NCBI RefSeq assembly: GCF_907165195.1
Contig: NZ_OU015584.1
Coordinates: 992,001-1,056,000, forward strand
Direction of reading: 5' to 3'
DNA from: Parvicella tangerina
Lineage (GTDB): Bacteria; Bacteroidota; Bacteroidia; Flavobacteriales_D; Parvicellaceae
DNA: 64,000 nt
Positions 50,140 to 56,945 of this stretch are shown here, in pieces. The translations under genes and the position numbers were made by a program. A model generated the notes under the pieces. That model did no database searches, was not told the DNA's origin, and saw only the letters and a list, made by a program, of their open reading frames with translations. How positions within the stretch are numbered: position 1 is the first letter of the stretch; every line of letters begins with the position of its first letter.

Positions 50140-51528
50140 TTAGTGCTGAACAGTAATTTTTTTAGTTGTTACAGAAATATCGTTAGAGATCTCTACGATG
50201 TACTGTCCGCTGTAAACTGTTTTCGTATCGAAATAAGCAATGGTCGATCCTTGCTTAATTTGTGTGCTATGAATTAATCTACCTGACATGTCATATAGTT
50301 TTACTTCAAAGTTCTCAGTGTTACTGTTCATCAGCTGAATAGCAATAAGATCTGAAGCAGGGTTAGGGAAAACATTCACCTGCACGTGTTCTAGATCAAT
50401 AACTGAAGATGTTCCTGGTGTATAAGTGGTTGTCGTTTCAGTGATAGAAGTAACTTCTCCGCCATCAACGTTTCCATAGTAGGTAGGGCCTACCATATAT
50501 GGAAATGCTGAATTCCAGTTCTCATCCACAGTGGCAAAATAGCAATAGATTCCATTTGGATATTCTGGTGTTACACAGAATCTTCCATTGTGTTCATCTA
50601 AATCACCAAATGATAAGTTAAACTCATAATCTTCACGGTAGTATCCAAGGGGATAAGTGGCGTCTACATCAGGACCGTCTGTAACATCAGTGCCATCGTA
50701 GTAGTGTGTTCTTTGCGTCATACTACTTCTTAACTGATAACTCGATTGTATTCTCTTAATACCTCCTGAACCATCAGGGTTTGCATAACCGTAAGGACCG
50801 TATACGGGAAATCCATCAAATGCGTATCCTAGTAAAGGAGAATGCTGTGTGGAATCAATGACGTATAAGCCATCACTCACATAGAGATCACAAACATCAG
50901 AAACTTCAACAAGGTCTAAGTTGAACGCAGATGGGTTTTGGTGGTGATGATAGGCTCCTCCTTCAAGAGTTCCTCCAGGTCCGGGTCCTCCACTAAAAAT
51001 TGGAGAAGGATGTCCCTTTGAACAATCAAATCCTTCATTCTCTGCCAGTATAGCATCTCTATTCCATACTCCGTCTCCTGTTCCACCAAGTGGTCCACCA
51101 GCGTCACTTCCCGAGGACAGACTGTAGGAAACTCCATCTCTATAATCATACATAGCTACTCCATTGATCCATATTCCTATAGAGCCCATTTGAGTGGCAG
51201 TTGCAGTCCCTGAGTTTTGAGAAGGGTTAAGAGGTATTTTGTAGATATAGTCGTTGTCAGTAGCTTGAGCTGGGTTGCCATCTTGATAAGGCCCCACGAT
51301 ATATGAGGGTATTCCAGAACAAGAGATGTAAGCGTAATTAGTAGAGAACTCTACTTGTTGAACATTGGCTTCATAGGAGTCGTTAATTGGTGTTGAGTTA
51401 CCGGCAACATAGTGGCTTCCTGTTAATCCCGTTGTATTGATCATCCATGAGGTGATCGCTGGATTCGTCTGCGCATTGATAGCTAAAGCAGATGAGATCG
51501 CGAGTGCGAATAGTACGTTTTTTTTCAT
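50140..51528 (-). CDS. T9SS-exported YHYH domain protein
   Basis: A 462-aa protein with signal peptide ending NAQ, then a YHYH domain: GGAYHHHQ at 181-187, LLGYAFDGFPVYGPYGY at 222-238, and DEHNGRFCVTPEYPNGIYCYFAT near 301-323. The last ~75 residues are a T9SS type A sorting domain (VNVFPNPASDLIAIQL). The His/Tyr-rich signature suggests metal binding, but the function of the family is not established. It is the last gene of the directon with MbnH, MbnP and the ECF module, 38 nt after mbnH. Confidence 0.88.
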   Translation of the reverse strand: MKKNVLFALAISSALAINAQTNPAITSWMINTTGLTGSHYVAGNSTPINDSYEANVQQVEFSTNYAYISCSGIPSYIVGPYQDGNPAQATDNDYIYKIPLNPSQNSGTATATQMGSIGIWINGVAMYDYRDGVSYSLSSGSDAGGPLGGTGDGVWNRDAILAENEGFDCSKGHPSPIFSGGPGPGGTLEGGAYHHHQNPSAFNLDLVEVSDVCDLYVSDGLYVIDSTQHSPLLGYAFDGFPVYGPYGYANPDGSGGIKRIQSSYQLRSSMTQRTHYYDGTDVTDGPDVDATYPLGYYREDYEFNLSFGDLDEHNGRFCVTPEYPNGIYCYFATVDENWNSAFPYMVGPTYYGNVDGGEVTSITETTTTYTPGTSSVIDLEHVQVNVFPNPASDLIAIQLMNSNTENFEVKLYDMSGRLIHSTQIKQGSTIAYFDTKTVYSGQYIVEISNDISVTTKKITVQH

Positions 51529-51566
51529 AGTTGTTATGATTTGTTTATAGGTTAGACGATATAATT

Positions 51567-52607
51567 CTATTCATCCTTCGTTTGAGGGAAAAAAAACTCA
51601 AATGGGAAGGAATATTTTTGGTTAAATAGGAATTCCTTGTCTGTTAATGTCAACAGAAAAGCAACCAAATCCGTTTTTTCATGATCAGTCAACGAAATTG
51701 GACGCTGAAGTCTGTGGTCGAGATGATCATTCTCAAGAGGAACTTCAGAAGTATAGAAATTCAAGACTTCGCGTAAGGTTTGGAATCTTCCGTCATGCAT
51801 ATACGGATAGGAAAATTCAATATTTCTGAGCGTTGGTATTTTAAAGTGCAAACTGTCCTCAGAACTATTTGTAATTTTCATTCTTCCAAAATCATTCAAC
51901 GAGGAATCCACGGGAAGACCATTCCATACAAACTCATTGGATGTAAACAAGGGGGCTTGGTGACATGAAGCACAATTCTTAAGAAAAAGCTGATAGCCAT
52001 TTCTCTCCTGATCGGTGAATTCATTATTGCCGGCCATCACTTGATCAAACTTAGCGTTCTTACTTTCTAACGTGGCCATAAAAGCTCCTATTGCTTTTAG
52101 CGTGTGTTCACCAGTTACCACTGGGTTTCCAAAAGCCGCCTGGAATAATTGCTGATAACTGGGATTGTGATTCAATTTGTAAACAACGTTTTCAATATTT
52201 TCTCCCATTTCATCGGGGTGACTAATAGGAGCCAGTGCCTGAGCATCCAGATTGTGAATAGCTCCATCCCACATGAACTGCTTTTGATAGGCTAAATTCA
52301 TTAGAGCTGGTGAGTTGCGCGTACCTATTCTATCAGCAATGCCATGGCTAAGTTGATGATCAACATGAGTAAATGCTGAATATTGTGAATGACATGAAGC
52401 ACAAGAGATAGTGCTATCTGACGAAAGAATTGGATCATAAAAAAGTACTCTTCCCAAATAGATTTTTTCTGCCGTCAGCGGATTAGAGATGGTGTCGTAC
52501 TGATACGCAGGCCATTCTATCATCTCCTCAGATAGATTTGACGGGATGGAAAGTTCTATTAAAGAAACCGTAGATATTAACGCTATGATGAGAGCAACAG
52601 GTTTCAA
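51567..52607 (-). CDS. Diheme cytochrome c peroxidase-like protein, MbnH/MauG family
   Basis: A 346-aa exported protein starting at TTG directly after the MbnP stop codon. It has two c-type heme sites: CASCH at 69-73 and at 212-216. YMHDGRF near 269-275 is the conserved loop of the bacterial peroxidase/MauG family, which supplies the second heme ligand in that superfamily. It is adjacent to an MbnP-like gene. In methanotrophs MbnH uses peroxide to convert a Trp in MbnP to kynurenine; the pairing here makes that the best hypothesis, though a plain cytochrome c peroxidase cannot be excluded. Confidence 0.87.
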   Translation of the reverse strand: MKPVALIIALISTVSLIELSIPSNLSEEMIEWPAYQYDTISNPLTAEKIYLGRVLFYDPILSSDSTISCASCHSQYSAFTHVDHQLSHGIADRIGTRNSPALMNLAYQKQFMWDGAIHNLDAQALAPISHPDEMGENIENVVYKLNHNPSYQQLFQAAFGNPVVTGEHTLKAIGAFMATLESKNAKFDQVMAGNNEFTDQERNGYQLFLKNCASCHQAPLFTSNEFVWNGLPVDSSLNDFGRMKITNSSEDSLHFKIPTLRNIEFSYPYMHDGRFQTLREVLNFYTSEVPLENDHLDHRLQRPISLTDHEKTDLVAFLLTLTDKEFLFNQKYSFPFEFFFPQTKDE

Positions 52608-53231
52608 TTATTTAACGGAAAAAAGTGATGGCAATAGGTCTGCGATCAGATTGGCATGGTGTCCTGGGGACATGACATGGTGGATTGTTCTGTAATCCAG
52701 TTGATCAAGTAACTTTTCAGGTGATATCTTGATCACAAAGTGGTCTGAAGTTGAATTTAATGGAAGCTGGACTTCACGACAAGCATTGTTGGGGTGCATA
52801 AATCCACCGATATGATAGCTTATCGAATGATTGTTGACATTGGCTTCAAGTTTAAAGTTGATGTAACCACTTTGCCACGTCCAGTACATGCCTTTTGTGG
52901 GATCTAGATCCCCTCCATGAACACCTTTCATATTTTTTGCACTATCAACGCCAACATTAAATGAAATCTGGTCAAAGTTCGTGTCTTCAGGAATTTCCAA
53001 ACGTATGGAGAGTGAGTTGGAGTCACTGTGATCTAATAAGTGATAGCTTTCTTGTTCAGTGAACGTGACAGTCTTATTGTTTGATAATTTTACAGAAGAA
53101 ATATAGTAGCGAAGTTGATCGATTGTCAAGTTCGCTGAACCGTGATCTAACTCAAAAGTAAAAACTACTTGTTTTTGAGAAAAGCAGATTGAACTGATCA
53201 AAAGAACGACTATGAATCCCAGAAATTTCAA
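52608..53231 (-). CDS. MbnP-like copper protein
   Basis: A 207-aa exported protein starting at TTG after the Spy-like stop codon; signal peptide 1-19. The MbnP pattern is seen in VGVDSAKNMKGVHGGDLD, GMYWTWQSGYINFKLEA at 114-130, and SYHIGGF. Trp117 and Trp119 are the only two Trp in the protein and both are in this motif. His105, His140 and His146 are candidate copper ligands. MbnP proteins bind copper via a kynurenine made by MbnH. Placement next to a diheme gene supports an equivalent maturation here; that is inference. Confidence 0.85.
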   Translation of the reverse strand: MKFLGFIVVLLISSICFSQKQVVFTFELDHGSANLTIDQLRYYISSVKLSNNKTVTFTEQESYHLLDHSDSNSLSIRLEIPEDTNFDQISFNVGVDSAKNMKGVHGGDLDPTKGMYWTWQSGYINFKLEANVNNHSISYHIGGFMHPNNACREVQLPLNSTSDHFVIKISPEKLLDQLDYRTIHHVMSPGHHANLIADLLPSLFSVK

Positions 53232-53687
53232 TTATTTTTTCTTTTTTGGTGGGTGATGCGGAGCAAATAGTTTACTCAATTCTTTCACCAATTTATTAAA
53301 AGCAATTTCTTGCTCGGGTGTACAGATGTCTCGTAGGTCACAAAAGTGATTAAAGTTTACATGTTCAATTTCGACATGTATTTGACCGATTTGATTTGCC
53401 AGTTTATCTACTTCCGTTTCTACATCATCCTCAAGTAATAAAGCGTACAAATTATTTTTAGCGATTTTTAGCGCTTGTTCTTTCTCAACAATTTTAGCAC
53501 GATGATCCTTGATCAAACCTTCGTAAGCAGCAACCTGATCTTTCGAAAAACCCAGCTTTTCAATGATAATATCTTTCGGTGGATGATGAGGTGGATGATC
53601 TGGTCTAGCAAAGAACAGATAGGCAAAAATACCATTACAGATCAACAGCAAAGAAATAATAACAATATAAACGGTGGATCTACTCAT
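53232..53687 (-). CDS. Spy/CnrX-like periplasmic metal-sensor protein
   Basis: A 151-aa protein with a single N-terminal membrane helix (6-27), then a helical periplasmic domain. His clusters flank it: RPDHPPHHPP (28-37) and PHHPPKKKK at the C-terminus. The middle has LGFSKDQVAAYEGLIKDHRAKI, an LTxxQ-like element, and HVEIEHVNFNHFCDLRDICTPEQ with three His and two Cys. This fits the CpxP/Spy/CnrX heavy-metal resistance family. It overlaps the anti-sigma gene by 8 bp and sits where CnrX does beside CnrY and CnrH, so a metal-sensing function is likely. Confidence 0.85.
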   Translation of the reverse strand: MSRSTVYIVIISLLLICNGIFAYLFFARPDHPPHHPPKDIIIEKLGFSKDQVAAYEGLIKDHRAKIVEKEQALKIAKNNLYALLLEDDVETEVDKLANQIGQIHVEIEHVNFNHFCDLRDICTPEQEIAFNKLVKELSKLFAPHHPPKKKK

Positions 53688-53988
53688 GGCTGTATAATTG
53701 TGGTGATGAATAAAGATTACTACCTATAGCTTCTATTTCGTTAGCTTCTTGCGTAGTTTGAGTTTGTTGACCAATCACATAGATGTTAAAAACGATCAGT
53801 ACAACGGAAAGCATAGCTGTTGACCACAAGAATCCAGGAGTGGCCATTTCTGTTAGGTTTTCATATTGCTGCTTCGCACGAGTCAGAATATGATCAGGAG
53901 CTTCAACACGACCAATCTGATCTTTTGTGTTGTTCAATATGTCTTCAACGTTTTGCATATCTATTGGTTTAGACGATGTATTATTCAT
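53680..53988 (-). CDS. Small membrane anti-sigma factor, CnrY-like
   Basis: A 102-aa protein with a cytoplasmic N-terminus (1-50), one membrane helix near 52-73 and a short periplasmic tail. It overlaps the ECF sigma gene by 8 bp and the Spy-like gene by 8 bp, the classic arrangement. The protein is too short and divergent to be assigned by motif; the call rests on topology and gene order. Confidence 0.75.
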   Translation of the reverse strand: MNNTSSKPIDMQNVEDILNNTKDQIGRVEAPDHILTRAKQQYENLTEMATPGFLWSTAMLSVVLIVFNIYVIGQQTQTTQEANEIEAIGSNLYSSPQLYSHE

Positions 53989-54511
53989 TTTCCTTCGCTT
54001 GTTGCATGATTTTTTTCAATTTCACCTTTGCTCGTTGAACTAGAGACTCTACTGCTTTAGGAGATAGGTTCATGATCTCCGCAACTTCTACTTGCGATCT
54101 ATCTTCTAATTTATGCAGTATCAACGCTGTTTTTTGTTTGTCAGGAAGTTGGTTGATACAGTTCATGATAAAAGCTACTTCCTCTTTAGATTTTAGCTGA
54201 ACGCCTGGGTGGTTAAAGTGATCTTGTGTAAAAATCGCTTCCTGACCACTTAACTTGAATATGGAACTTAAAAACCCAAGGCGCTTTTTCGCTTTCTTGG
54301 CTTTGATGAAATCAAGGGATTTATTGATGGTAATCCGATAAACCCAGGTTGTCATCTCCGCATCTTGGTTGAATGTATCGTAGTTCTTGAAGATCGAGAC
54401 GAAAACATCTTGCGTAACCTCCTCGGCATCTTCAATGTTCTGGAGGTATTTTAAAGCTAGGTTGTAAACAAGATCCTTGTGCTCTTGATATATTTTATCG
54501 AAGTTCAACAA
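53981..54511 (-). CDS. ECF sigma factor
   Basis: A 176-aa sigma of group 4. Region 2 is DAEEVTQDVFVSIFKNYDTF near 28-47 with TWVYRITINKSLDFIKAKKAKKR; region 4 is LPDKQKTALILHKLEDRSQVEVAEIMNLSPKAVESLVQRAKVKLKK near 122-167. It starts at TTG (two in a row) immediately after the TGA of the ABC permease gene, so its translation is coupled. It likely controls the downstream metal genes when released from the anti-sigma factor. Confidence 0.92.
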   Translation of the reverse strand: MLNFDKIYQEHKDLVYNLALKYLQNIEDAEEVTQDVFVSIFKNYDTFNQDAEMTTWVYRITINKSLDFIKAKKAKKRLGFLSSIFKLSGQEAIFTQDHFNHPGVQLKSKEEVAFIMNCINQLPDKQKTALILHKLEDRSQVEVAEIMNLSPKAVESLVQRAKVKLKKIMQQAKENE

Positions 54512-55963
54512 TCAGTACTTCAACCATTTGAATAACTCCTTGTAGGTGATTTTCTTTCCGTACATTAAAATACCCGTGCGATATATTTTACCAGCAACCC
54601 AGGTCGTACCAATAAAGGTAACTATTAGCAAGATCATACTACTGATCAAGGGTAATGTCATTCCATCTCCACCATTTGCACTGTACCTCACCAACATCAC
54701 AATGGGGGAGGTAAACGGAATTTGACTGCACCATTGCATAATCGTACTATTTGGATCTTGAATACCAATTAAGGAGATCATATAGGCGAATATCAACGGG
54801 AGCGTAACAGGAAGCATGAACTGTTGGGTGTCGGTCTCGCTATCTACAGCTGCCCCAACAGCTGCCATCAAGGATCCATAAAGGAGGTAGCCTCCAATAA
54901 AGAAGAACAGAAAAATGAAGATTAGCGATACCCATGGAACTTCATTGAACAAATACATTAAGGTGTCGCTATTTTGTGCTGTAACCGCCTGTTCATTCAA
55001 GCCCATGTGATTTGCAACGTCTCCAGTAACTTGTTCTGTGGGAATGTTTTGAGTAGCTTGAAAACCAGCCGCATACTTGTCGGAAACTAGAAATGGTAAA
55101 CCAACAATTGCGAAGGTGCCAATGAGGGTTACCCACATAGCAAATTGAGTGAGGCCGACCAACATGATCCCAATGATTTTCCCCATCATTAACTCAAAAG
55201 GTTTTACTGAGGAAACAATCACTTCAACAATCCTACTTGTTTTTTCTTCAATTACGCCCTTCATGACCTGAACGCCATAAAAGAAAATGAATAAATAAAT
55301 GAGCAATCCGAATACAAATCCAATTACTGATTTCTCCTCAACCATAGAGTCTCGGTCATCCTCACTTTTTACATCATTAAAATCAACTCTGATCTGACTT
55401 TTGACTGATTTGTATAGATCGGGGTCAATTTCGAAAGCTTCTAGCTTATGCTTCTCAACCGAATTATTGATGATCTGCGTTATGTGCGTTTGAACGTGCG
55501 CAGGTGGAATTTCTCTAAAAACCACTTTCACCGAGTTGAAAAGTTTGGAAGTTCCTCCATCATCAGAAGTTGGAACATAGACGAGTAAGTCATAATCTTG
55601 CATCCCTTCCTCTTCTGCAAAGAGATCTTTTACTTCCTCGAAAGATTTGCCCGCTTCAACATTATCATAGTAGATAAATTTATACTTATCGTTGAGGTGT
55701 CCTTCAGGATCGGTAACTATATTACCTTTTTGCTCAGGTTCCTGGGCTCTTTTAGCTTGTTCAATAAAAAGGTGTTTGGTCACTGCGGTAGCTTCATCCA
55801 CAACAAGAATTTTGTAATTCTTTTCTTCAGGAGCACTCAAATAGGCAAGTGCTACTAATAGACCAGCAACTAAAAAAGGAACGAGGAGGGTCAGAATAAT
55901 AAAAGACTTCTTTTTTACTCGACTGCCATATTCGCGCTTAATGATTAGACCAATTTTACTCAT
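54512..55963 (-). CDS. ABC-2 type permease, NatB-like
   Basis: A 483-aa membrane protein: N-terminal helix, a ~200-residue extracytoplasmic domain, then five to six helices in the C-terminal half. The pattern VMKGVIEEKTSRIVEVIVSSVKPFELMMGKIIGIMLVGL is typical of ABC-2 NatB/YhaP-type permeases. It overlaps the ATPase gene by 8 bp. Sodium or metabolite export is family-level knowledge only. It directly precedes the ECF sigma gene. Confidence 0.85.
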   Translation of the reverse strand: MSKIGLIIKREYGSRVKKKSFIILTLLVPFLVAGLLVALAYLSAPEEKNYKILVVDEATAVTKHLFIEQAKRAQEPEQKGNIVTDPEGHLNDKYKFIYYDNVEAGKSFEEVKDLFAEEEGMQDYDLLVYVPTSDDGGTSKLFNSVKVVFREIPPAHVQTHITQIINNSVEKHKLEAFEIDPDLYKSVKSQIRVDFNDVKSEDDRDSMVEEKSVIGFVFGLLIYLFIFFYGVQVMKGVIEEKTSRIVEVIVSSVKPFELMMGKIIGIMLVGLTQFAMWVTLIGTFAIVGLPFLVSDKYAAGFQATQNIPTEQVTGDVANHMGLNEQAVTAQNSDTLMYLFNEVPWVSLIFIFLFFFIGGYLLYGSLMAAVGAAVDSETDTQQFMLPVTLPLIFAYMISLIGIQDPNSTIMQWCSQIPFTSPIVMLVRYSANGGDGMTLPLISSMILLIVTFIGTTWVAGKIYRTGILMYGKKITYKELFKWLKY

Positions 55964-56945
55964 TATCTTGCGTATTTTCCTGATTTAAACTTTGTTCAAC
56001 TTCTTCTGCAGAAACATTGTCTTTTTGTGCTACTGCCTTAATGAAAATCTCATTCATTGAAGGGATTCTTTTGTTTACACCCAAAACCTCTACATGTTCC
56101 AGAATGGATTTTAGGTAATTATTTAATGTATTTCCTTCCATCAGCTTAATCGTAGCCAAAAAGTGATGTTCACCTAATTGTTCTCGGTTAACCAATTCCC
56201 AGCCTCCCCAAACGGCATTTGCAAAAGAAACCACATTTCCTTTGAATTCAATCAGGTATTCTTCATCTGAAAACTTCGCTTTAACATCAGTCAGTTTTCC
56301 ATCCAATACTTTTTTGGATTTATTGATCAAAGTGATGTGGTCACAGATCTCTTCAACAGATCCCATATTGTGGGTAGAGAGAATAATGGTTGTTCCCTGA
56401 TCTCGAAGTTTAAGGATCTCACTTTTTACCAAATTCGTATTGATCGGGTCAAACCCGCTAAAGGGCTCATCCAAAATCAATAGCTGAGGACGGTGCATGA
56501 CGGTGGTGATAAACTGAATCTTTTGAGCCATACCTTTAGAAAGTTCTTCTACTTTCTTATCCCACCAAGCCAAAATGTCGAATTTTTTAAACCAATGATT
56601 TAAGGCTTCTTTCGCCTCTTTCTTATCCATGCCCTTCAACTGAGCAAGATACAAGGCTTGTTCGCCTACTTTCATTTTCTTGTACAGACCTCTTTCTTCA
56701 GGTAGATAACCAATTTGACTGATATGCTCACGTCTCAAGCGCTCACCATTGAGGTAAACGGCTCCACTATCTGGCGCAGTGATCTGATTAATGATTCGAA
56801 TCAGACTCGTTTTTCCTGCCCCGTTTGGTCCTAGTAGACCATAAACGGACTGCTTTGGAACTTCTATACTCACATCATCTAAGGCAGTGTGTGCAGCGTA
56901 GCTCTTTACAATATTCTCAGCCTTGAAAATAATCTCGTTTGACAT
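55956..56945 (-). CDS. ABC transporter ATP-binding protein, NatA-like
   Basis: A 329-aa ATPase: Walker A GPNGAGKTS at 38-46, signature ELSKGMAQK, Walker B LLILDEPFSGFDP, switch His in LSTHNMGS. A C-terminal extension (residues ~225-310) carries the DUF4162-like regulatory region, followed by an acidic tail (QNTQDNE). It forms an exporter with the permease that overlaps its 3' end. Confidence 0.9.
   Translation of the reverse strand: MSNEIIFKAENIVKSYAAHTALDDVSIEVPKQSVYGLLGPNGAGKTSLIRIINQITAPDSGAVYLNGERLRREHISQIGYLPEERGLYKKMKVGEQALYLAQLKGMDKKEAKEALNHWFKKFDILAWWDKKVEELSKGMAQKIQFITTVMHRPQLLILDEPFSGFDPINTNLVKSEILKLRDQGTTIILSTHNMGSVEEICDHITLINKSKKVLDGKLTDVKAKFSDEEYLIEFKGNVVSFANAVWGGWELVNREQLGEHHFLATIKLMEGNTLNNYLKSILEHVEVLGVNKRIPSMNEIFIKAVAQKDNVSAEEVEQSLNQENTQDNE

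Follow-up and report, generated by a model that had tools for sequence, protein, structure and literature searches.

A conserved sigma factor–sensor gene set with MbnP, MbnH, and a YHYH protein suggests a copper response at the Bacteroidota cell envelope

We analyzed a stretch of 64,000 nucleotides from Parvicella tangerina (contig NZ_OU015584.1, positions 992,001 to 1,056,000; hereafter the window), following up a sequence-only reading that had singled out six genes at positions 50140-54511. These genes encode an extracytoplasmic function (ECF) sigma factor, an anti-sigma factor, a Spy/CnrX-like sensor, an MbnP-family protein, an MbnH-like diheme enzyme, and a YHYH protein with a type IX secretion system (T9SS) sorting domain. 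We found that the gene set is conserved across many aquatic Bacteroidota, beyond the gene order of a single genome, and its members are very probably co-regulated, judging from promoter-like sites at two places in the locus. The gene set suggests a cell-envelope response to copper that has not been described before, and we consider it probable that this is a Bacteroidota envelope metal-response operon, with copper as the most likely metal. The families to which the components belong are known. In the literature that we searched, with most subscription papers outside it, we came upon no account of a Bacteroidota MbnP-YHYH module, of its promoter, or of its alternative outputs.

The gene set and its conservation

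Coordinates and family searches agree with the proposed order of the six genes, all on the minus strand, and with the claim that they overlap or abut down to mbnH: two 8-bp overlaps are followed by two junctions with no gap and then by 38 bp before the YHYH gene. The genes and two candidate promoters are listed below.

53981..54511, minus strand: ECF sigma factor, 176 aa; TTG start right after the natB stop; ECF regions 2 and 4 (5e-16, 7e-16)
53969..53997, minus strand: candidate sigma-dependent promoter 1, CGAAGG-N16-CGTCTAA; at the sigma/anti-sigma junction, overlapping the end of sigma; exact pattern match
53680..53988, minus strand: anti-sigma factor, 102 aa; overlaps sigma by 8 bp; one hydrophobic stretch (hydropathy); alternative internal ATG start at 53958
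53232..53687, minus strand: predicted Spy/CnrX-like sensor, 151 aa, membrane-anchored and periplasmic; overlaps anti-sigma by 8 bp; one hydrophobic stretch (hydropathy)
52608..53231, minus strand: MbnP-family protein, 207 aa; TTG start; abuts the sensor gene; PF20243 at 1.2e-38, 133 bits against a cut-off of 27
51567..52607, minus strand: MbnH-like diheme enzyme; TTG start; abuts MbnP; CCP_MauG at 2.3e-55
51552..51580, minus strand: candidate sigma-dependent promoter 2, CGAAGG-N16-CGTCTAA; 23 bp before the YHYH start; exact pattern match
50140..51528, minus strand: YHYH protein with C-terminal T9SS sorting domain, 462 aa; 38-bp gap after MbnH; YHYH at 2.1e-55, Por_Secre_tail at 3e-14

We assessed conservation in two sets. 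The first comprised 199 genomes of the order to which the window organism belongs, in which a protein scan found an MbnP match in 121 genomes and a YHYH match in 93. At least 49 of the 91 strong YHYH matches (E 3.2e-36 or better) in these genomes had a listed MbnP match no more than 5 kb away, a pairing beyond chance; MbnP matches that were weak or unlisted did not enter this count. The second set comprised the best 80 YHYH loci, out of a larger number that matched, from a YHYH-alignment search of titled genome records. By title, 78 of them belong to Bacteroidota groups, one to an "uncultured bacterium," and one to Candidatus Kapaibacterium. We left out the 26 loci with less than 5.2 kb of upstream sequence and applied E-value limits to the sigma, MbnP, and MbnH matches of the other 54.

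The sequence-only reading had staked itself on this gene order recurring elsewhere, and it does: the full sigma-Spy-MbnP-MbnH-YHYH set was present in 24 of the 54 loci, and one further locus (L142) carried it with a weak Spy match (0.0024). Among the 24 full loci, the commonest gap was -1, both between Spy and MbnP and between MbnP and MbnH. Apart from operons with no adjacent switch, which are weighed below, the remaining loci had MbnH alone (one locus) or no same-strand partner for YHYH (eight loci, including L171, where the other genes are divergent from YHYH). Within a phylum-wide draw, YHYH was matched at E 1e-60 or better in 16 of 395 genomes, and the family is therefore patchy across the phylum.

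A promoter-like sequence common to two units

Sigma upstream sequences from several loci have CAAGT..CATC in common. A dyad search of the sigma upstreams rose only marginally above shuffles; the clear signal came from scanning YHYH upstreams with a position matrix that had been trained on eight sigma-upstream sites. The median matrix score was -1.2 for the YHYH upstreams of 49 loci containing the sigma, anti-sigma, and sensor triad, compared to -9.1 for 316 control upstreams taken from those loci (Mann-Whitney p 2.5e-9). Among the YHYH upstreams, 18 of 49 with the triad and 7 of 85 without it exceeded the 99% level set by 884 controls.

The matrix output gave a two-box pattern, CGMARG-N16-CRTCTAA. 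When we searched locus sequence amounting to 3.70 Mb over the two strands together, this strict pattern matched 40 times, 37 of them at module sites, compared to 0 matches for the reversed pattern. Twenty of the matches lie before YHYH, 11 at the sigma/anti-sigma junction, four before sigma, two before MbnP, and three elsewhere. The two before MbnP (L033 and L131) belong to operons without an adjacent switch; in genome G109, the MbnP/MbnH pair sits elsewhere and has the pattern before its MbnP (L033). With up to one mismatch allowed, triad loci carried a site at 34 of 57 sigma/anti-sigma junctions and in 27 of 49 YHYH upstreams, compared to 2 of 884 controls, while sites were present in 8 of 57 sigma upstreams and in 3 of 41 MbnP upstreams lacking the triad. 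A sigma-side site and a YHYH-side site occurred together in 21 of 49 loci at this stringency.

The window genome (3.98 Mb) contains the exact pattern three times, at 51552-51580, at 53969-53997, and inside a 760-aa open reading frame, and the strict pattern is absent before sigma in the window. Across the 199 whole genomes, the exact pattern occurs at 65 places, 22 of which, by our own count, are in such modules or switches. There is no genome-wide enrichment of the pattern; what is special is its position. A promoter-like sequence common to both units supports the proposal that the regulator is coupled to MbnP/MbnH and to YHYH, and it is because of where the sites lie that we assign them to this ECF sigma factor, which would presumably read them.

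We rejected the idea of a larger regulon in the window genome, where the exact pattern adds one place within a reading frame and one-mismatch matches are fewer than in the control. Exact matches before a TonB-type receptor gene, CotH/LTD-T9SS genes, and an arylsulfotransferase-like gene were set aside as single or double cases for which chance would suffice. The matches directly before CotH/lamin-tail/T9SS genes (L229 2466-4753 and L224 3219-5545) come from two genomes, one of which belongs to the window's genus; they may be additional targets or due to chance.

The ABC-2 type genes natA and natB (window 54512-56945, minus strand) lie immediately upstream of sigma, with natB ending at 54512. 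Because the sigma TTG directly follows the natB stop, sigma may be read together with natAB in the window genome.

The sigma, anti-sigma, and sensor switch

The first three genes had been said to mirror CnrH-CnrY-CnrX. This comparison stands for architecture and size, as an ECF sigma factor, a one-helix anti-sigma factor (the helix judged by hydropathy), and a membrane-anchored sensor share one operon in the CnrYXH-type layout. It does not stand for sequence, for the Met123 position, or for the conserved residues, which are different. A search with the sensor profile reached NccX at E 0.13, a weak match in which His114 falls on an NccX His and His62 on a Glu. At the position of Met123 (CnrX residue numbering), the 21 aligned sensors have Ile (15), Leu (3), or Val (3), as far as this weak alignment can be read, and a Cys lies four residues further on. 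Met123 is needed for CnrX signaling according to the accessible text of PMC7689651.

Conservation within the sensor alignment was high at His62 (21 of 21), Glu108 (20 of 21), Cys122 (20 of 21), and Gln126 (19 of 21), followed by His114 (16 of 21). The window sensor scored 18.4 bits against PF13801 (Metal_resist), below the cut-off of 29.2, and 8 of the 21 alignment members match that family at E 0.01; the anti-sigma factor had no family match above cut-off. The altered ligand set fits a metal other than that of CnrX, and we infer that this metal is copper.

MbnP and MbnH

We modeled the window MbnP with AlphaFold2 (predicted local distance difference test score [pLDDT] 89.3) and found that the model superimposes on the MbnP of M. 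trichosporium, 7l6g, with Z 16.0 and rmsd 2.8 over 186 residues (next match, 4.9). The protein is thus predicted to have the MbnP fold. Sequence searches of the PDB with the window MbnP, with its profile, and with the second MbnP of the genome recovered no MbnP structure; the structural link was obtained through the fold search and through a Paracoccus MbnP sequence. The Trp117/Trp119 numbering given earlier is correct, and W117, W119, and H140 are present in all 30 members of the MbnP alignment, with the C-terminal Met187 kept in 26 of 30. Met115, Trp117, Trp119, and His140 are also common to 9 of 9 MbnPs that include Deinococcus and proteobacterial proteins, and the proteobacterial MbnP P0001, which has Met-x-Trp-x-Trp and His140, matches 7l6g at 1.9e-41. 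In a 2021 PNAS paper on MbnP, the first Trp of 7l6g is reportedly converted to kynurenine, and His and Met are said to hold the copper. The window MbnP has just two Cys residues (16 and 151) and lacks the four-Cys feature named in the 7l6g entry. Since it falls below the TIGR04052 equivalog cut-off (32.9 bits versus 140), we file it as a Pfam MbnP-family member and not as that equivalog.

The MbnH-like enzyme carries two CxxCH motifs (Cys69-Cys72-His73 and Cys212-Cys215-His216) and Tyr285 in all 22 alignment members. This Tyr aligns to a Tyr in 6e1c and to a Met in 1iqc, and replacement of the axial Met of bCcP by Tyr is a MauG/MbnH-type feature. The best PDB match of the MbnH profile was 6e1c (4e-71), which we take to be a methanotroph MbnH. 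The window enzyme scored 220 bits against TIGR04039, below the cut-off of 362.85, which 2 of the 199 genomes pass. The window MbnP may form kynurenine and bind Cu(I). MbnP and MbnH have hydrophobic N-termini and are probably periplasmic. A search of the window genome for MbnB gave no match, in line with the earlier remark that no methanobactin genes were seen.

Two further MbnP contexts came to our attention. A second MbnP in the window genome (L072 8839-11717, C1 at ~880 kb, outside the window) keeps WxW and is followed by two tandem MbnH-like genes. On plasmids of Paracoccus (L186 7801-8970) and Ideonella (L188 6824-8095), the gene that follows MbnP bears the annotation MATE transporter MbnM; its product in L186 contains a pair of CxxCH motifs and looks like a diheme enzyme of the MbnH type, so the label is probably wrong.

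The YHYH protein and its export

The window YHYH protein scored 188 bits against PF14240 (cut-off, 25), and His173, His194, His196, His229, and Asp238 are present in 28 of 28 aligned members. The YHYH domain has a predicted metal site with conserved His and Asp, as described in the available portion of PMC7824862, and the invariant residues of the window protein fit such a site. Its AlphaFold2 model was poor (pLDDT 57). The proposed T9SS export signal is borne out by the sorting domain on the protein (type A, TIGR04183, 47.9 bits versus a cut-off of 23) and by the translocon gene sprA in the window genome (SprA, 2405.7 bits). The suggestion that copper is handled at the cell surface holds for YHYH, the sole T9SS sorting-domain match among the six proteins, and not for MbnP and MbnH, for which the periplasm is the probable location. 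Outside Bacteroidota, a YHYH gene on a Deinococcus plasmid (L187 5392-7468) adjoins a gene annotated as HupE/UreJ family, a possible metal-transport context.

Possible alternative outputs of the switch

The switch genes also occur with other combinations of partners. Sigma-anti-Spy-YHYH is found without MbnP/MbnH in L074 (with a weak YHYH match, 2e-26), L079, and L095, while sigma-Spy-MbnP-MbnH is found in L058, L062, and L071 without YHYH in the fetched stretch, which in L062 extends just 0.8 kb beyond MbnH. In one genome (L223 2600-7984), the same kind of switch, along with two promoter-pattern sites, precedes a CueO-like multicopper oxidase that carries a T9SS tail and scores 333 bits, below the cut-off of 525. 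Genes for an AhpC/TSA-type protein and for another YHYH protein, shorter than the first, come next. At L260 (4302-6943) and L263 (3693-6351), the switch precedes a long MauG-type diheme enzyme that has no neighboring MbnP, and the L260 enzyme ends in a T9SS sorting tail. A different arrangement is seen at L268 (1851-6832), where a tandem MbnP-MbnH precedes sigma-anti-Spy and a second MbnP-MbnH follows.

Scanning the 199 genomes with the sensor profile (E 1e-6) gave a single match in each of 54 genomes. Of these matches, 34 had a listed MbnP no more than 3.2 kb away, a share that is biased upward because the query profile was built from MbnP-linked sensors; three others had YHYH only, one the oxidase, and two a diheme enzyme only. 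We see an even chance that these loci represent a Bacteroidota family of copper switches, built from an ECF sigma factor, an anti-sigma factor, and a sensor and served by a promoter sequence specific to the family, in which a sensor Cys/His site replaces the CnrX Met site and interchangeable copper-redox outputs make up the envelope copper regulon of the phylum. The outputs of such a family would be kynurenine-type MbnP with MbnH, YHYH, a T9SS CueO-like oxidase, and a T9SS-tailed diheme enzyme.

Proposed mechanism and alternative explanations

We propose that the ECF sigma factor would be held at the inner membrane by the anti-sigma factor, which would let go once the periplasmic Spy/CnrX-like sensor binds metal through its His/Glu/Cys site. 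Promoter 1 would then drive the anti-sigma, sensor, MbnP, and MbnH genes, and promoter 2 would drive YHYH. Since the window sigma gene directly follows natB and has no strict pattern before it, it would lie outside both units, and induction would increase its inhibitor along with the sensor, creating negative feedback. MbnH would oxidize MbnP at Trp117, and the resulting kynurenine would provide a high-affinity periplasmic copper site, while YHYH would be exported through the T9SS as a surface metal-site protein. Copper is the likely signal, and as its trigger we slightly favor an excess of the metal rather than a shortage. This leaning draws on the CueO-like partner of one genome, on the logic of CnrX, and on the copC/copD-type genes that adjoin a Deinococcus MbnP.

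Several observations weigh against this interpretation. The MbnP-MbnH-YHYH trio lacks an adjacent switch in 20 of the 54 YHYH loci; the neighbors of such operons, whose translations we inspected mostly without family searches, were housekeeping-like and offered no functional clue. Fourteen of the 54 sensor matches have none of the partners above on the sensor strand. Two of these, G090 and G061, were classed from their coordinates; the sequence of L259 stops shortly past the sensor gene, and L261 includes an oxidase-type gene in convergent orientation that carries a T9SS tail. A site within one mismatch is present in 16 of 85 YHYH upstreams without the triad. The 65 exact matches in the 199 genomes compare to 68 for the reversed control on the forward strand alone (counted by hand), and the window genome has 15 matches within one mismatch versus 26 for that control. 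The loci share ancestry, such that Fisher values overstate their independence, and the pattern was built partly from the sequences on which it was tested, which makes the later counts partly circular; the window locus was not used to build the pattern, although its YHYH upstream was viewed before the pattern was fixed. Finally, sequence can do no more than suggest copper as the signal, copper on YHYH, and Trp oxidation to kynurenine, and the direction of the response is likewise inferred.

Of the alternatives, a copper-starvation acquisition operon fares best, although we regard it as unlikely. In this scenario, which follows the example of methanotrophs, a copper shortage would induce MbnP with its high-affinity site and YHYH at the surface, and both would serve to scavenge the metal. 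MopE/CorA of methanotrophs is copper-repressed, a point counting against our reading that is made in the accessible part of PMC3912023. On a Paracoccus plasmid, MbnP and a diheme protein have PCu(A)C and two Sco genes as neighbors, which fits this scenario as well. However, the sole promoter-sharing enzyme with clear copper kinship is the CueO-like oxidase, and CueO-like oxidases are usually detoxification enzymes. The Deinococcus MbnP neighborhood likewise speaks against starvation, and CnrX-type switches fire upon metal binding, as stated in the available text of PMC7689651.

We find it more doubtful still that the switch senses another envelope signal, such as a different metal, peroxide, or misfolded protein, with MbnP-MbnH-YHYH forming a redox or metal response that is not specific to copper. 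Spy, a chaperone, is likewise among the matches of the sensor profile (3oeo, 0.016); the diheme enzymes without an adjoining MbnP at L260 and L263, and sensor ligands that differ from those of CnrX, would fit this explanation too, yet the repeated partnering with MbnP and with one multicopper oxidase, together with the conserved Cys and His of the sensor, counts against it. That the genes are merely co-inherited neighbors, with promoter-like sites kept by descent, is very improbable: the loci are homologous, many have no adjoining switch, and the pattern is not enriched genome-wide, but the site recurs at nonhomologous places within one locus and also precedes the multicopper oxidase and the detached MbnP operons (L033 and L131).

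The interpretation offered by the sequence-only reading is therefore upheld with respect to conserved order, a shared promoter-like sequence, the lack of an MbnB match, and sprA, while the likeness to CnrX is weaker than proposed and a surface location applies to YHYH only. If our copper reading is correct, kynurenine-type copper proteins of the MbnP family outside methanotrophs are placed under a defined switch with two candidate promoter sites, and whether MbnP/MbnH pairs in ordinary bacteria serve copper intake or protection becomes answerable. For the YHYH family, the analysis supplies a partner and points to metal as the likely context. To our knowledge, few sigma/promoter pairs are known in Bacteroidota, and our analysis predicts one.

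Comparison with known systems

The context had been called new, and this holds for the switch-MbnP-MbnH-YHYH module, for which we found no description. It does not hold for MbnP/MbnH outside methanobactin operons, as the pair is already reported in the accessible text of PMC3621798 to be conserved far beyond methanobactin producers and operons. The window pair resembles methanotroph MbnP-MbnH (PF20243; TIGR04039/TIGR04052) in its adjacent genes, MbnP fold, Met-x-Trp-x-Trp and His, and diheme enzyme with Tyr; it differs in its short two-Cys MbnP, TIGR scores below cut-off, lack of an MbnB match, and association with an ECF/anti-sigma/sensor switch and YHYH. The YHYH protein shares the conserved histidines and aspartate of PF14240, for which a phage-tail hydrolase is predicted in the part of PMC7824862 that is available, whereas here it is a T9SS cargo coupled to MbnP/MbnH.

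MopE/CorA with CorB (SACCP) is similar in that a kynurenine copper protein is co-transcribed with a diheme enzyme, according to the accessible part of PMC3912023. However, MopE/CorA is described as having no marked sequence similarity to MbnP in the available portion of PMC3621798, and there the kynurenine protein itself is at the surface.

The nickel/cobalt systems CnrH-CnrY-CnrX and NccX of Cupriavidus likewise combine an ECF sigma factor, a one-helix anti-sigma factor, and an anchored, helical periplasmic sensor of ~150 aa. The gene order in Cupriavidus is CnrYXH, whereas here it is sigma-anti-sensor, with weak sensor similarity, Ile, Leu, or Val at the Met123 position, and targets other than an RND pump.

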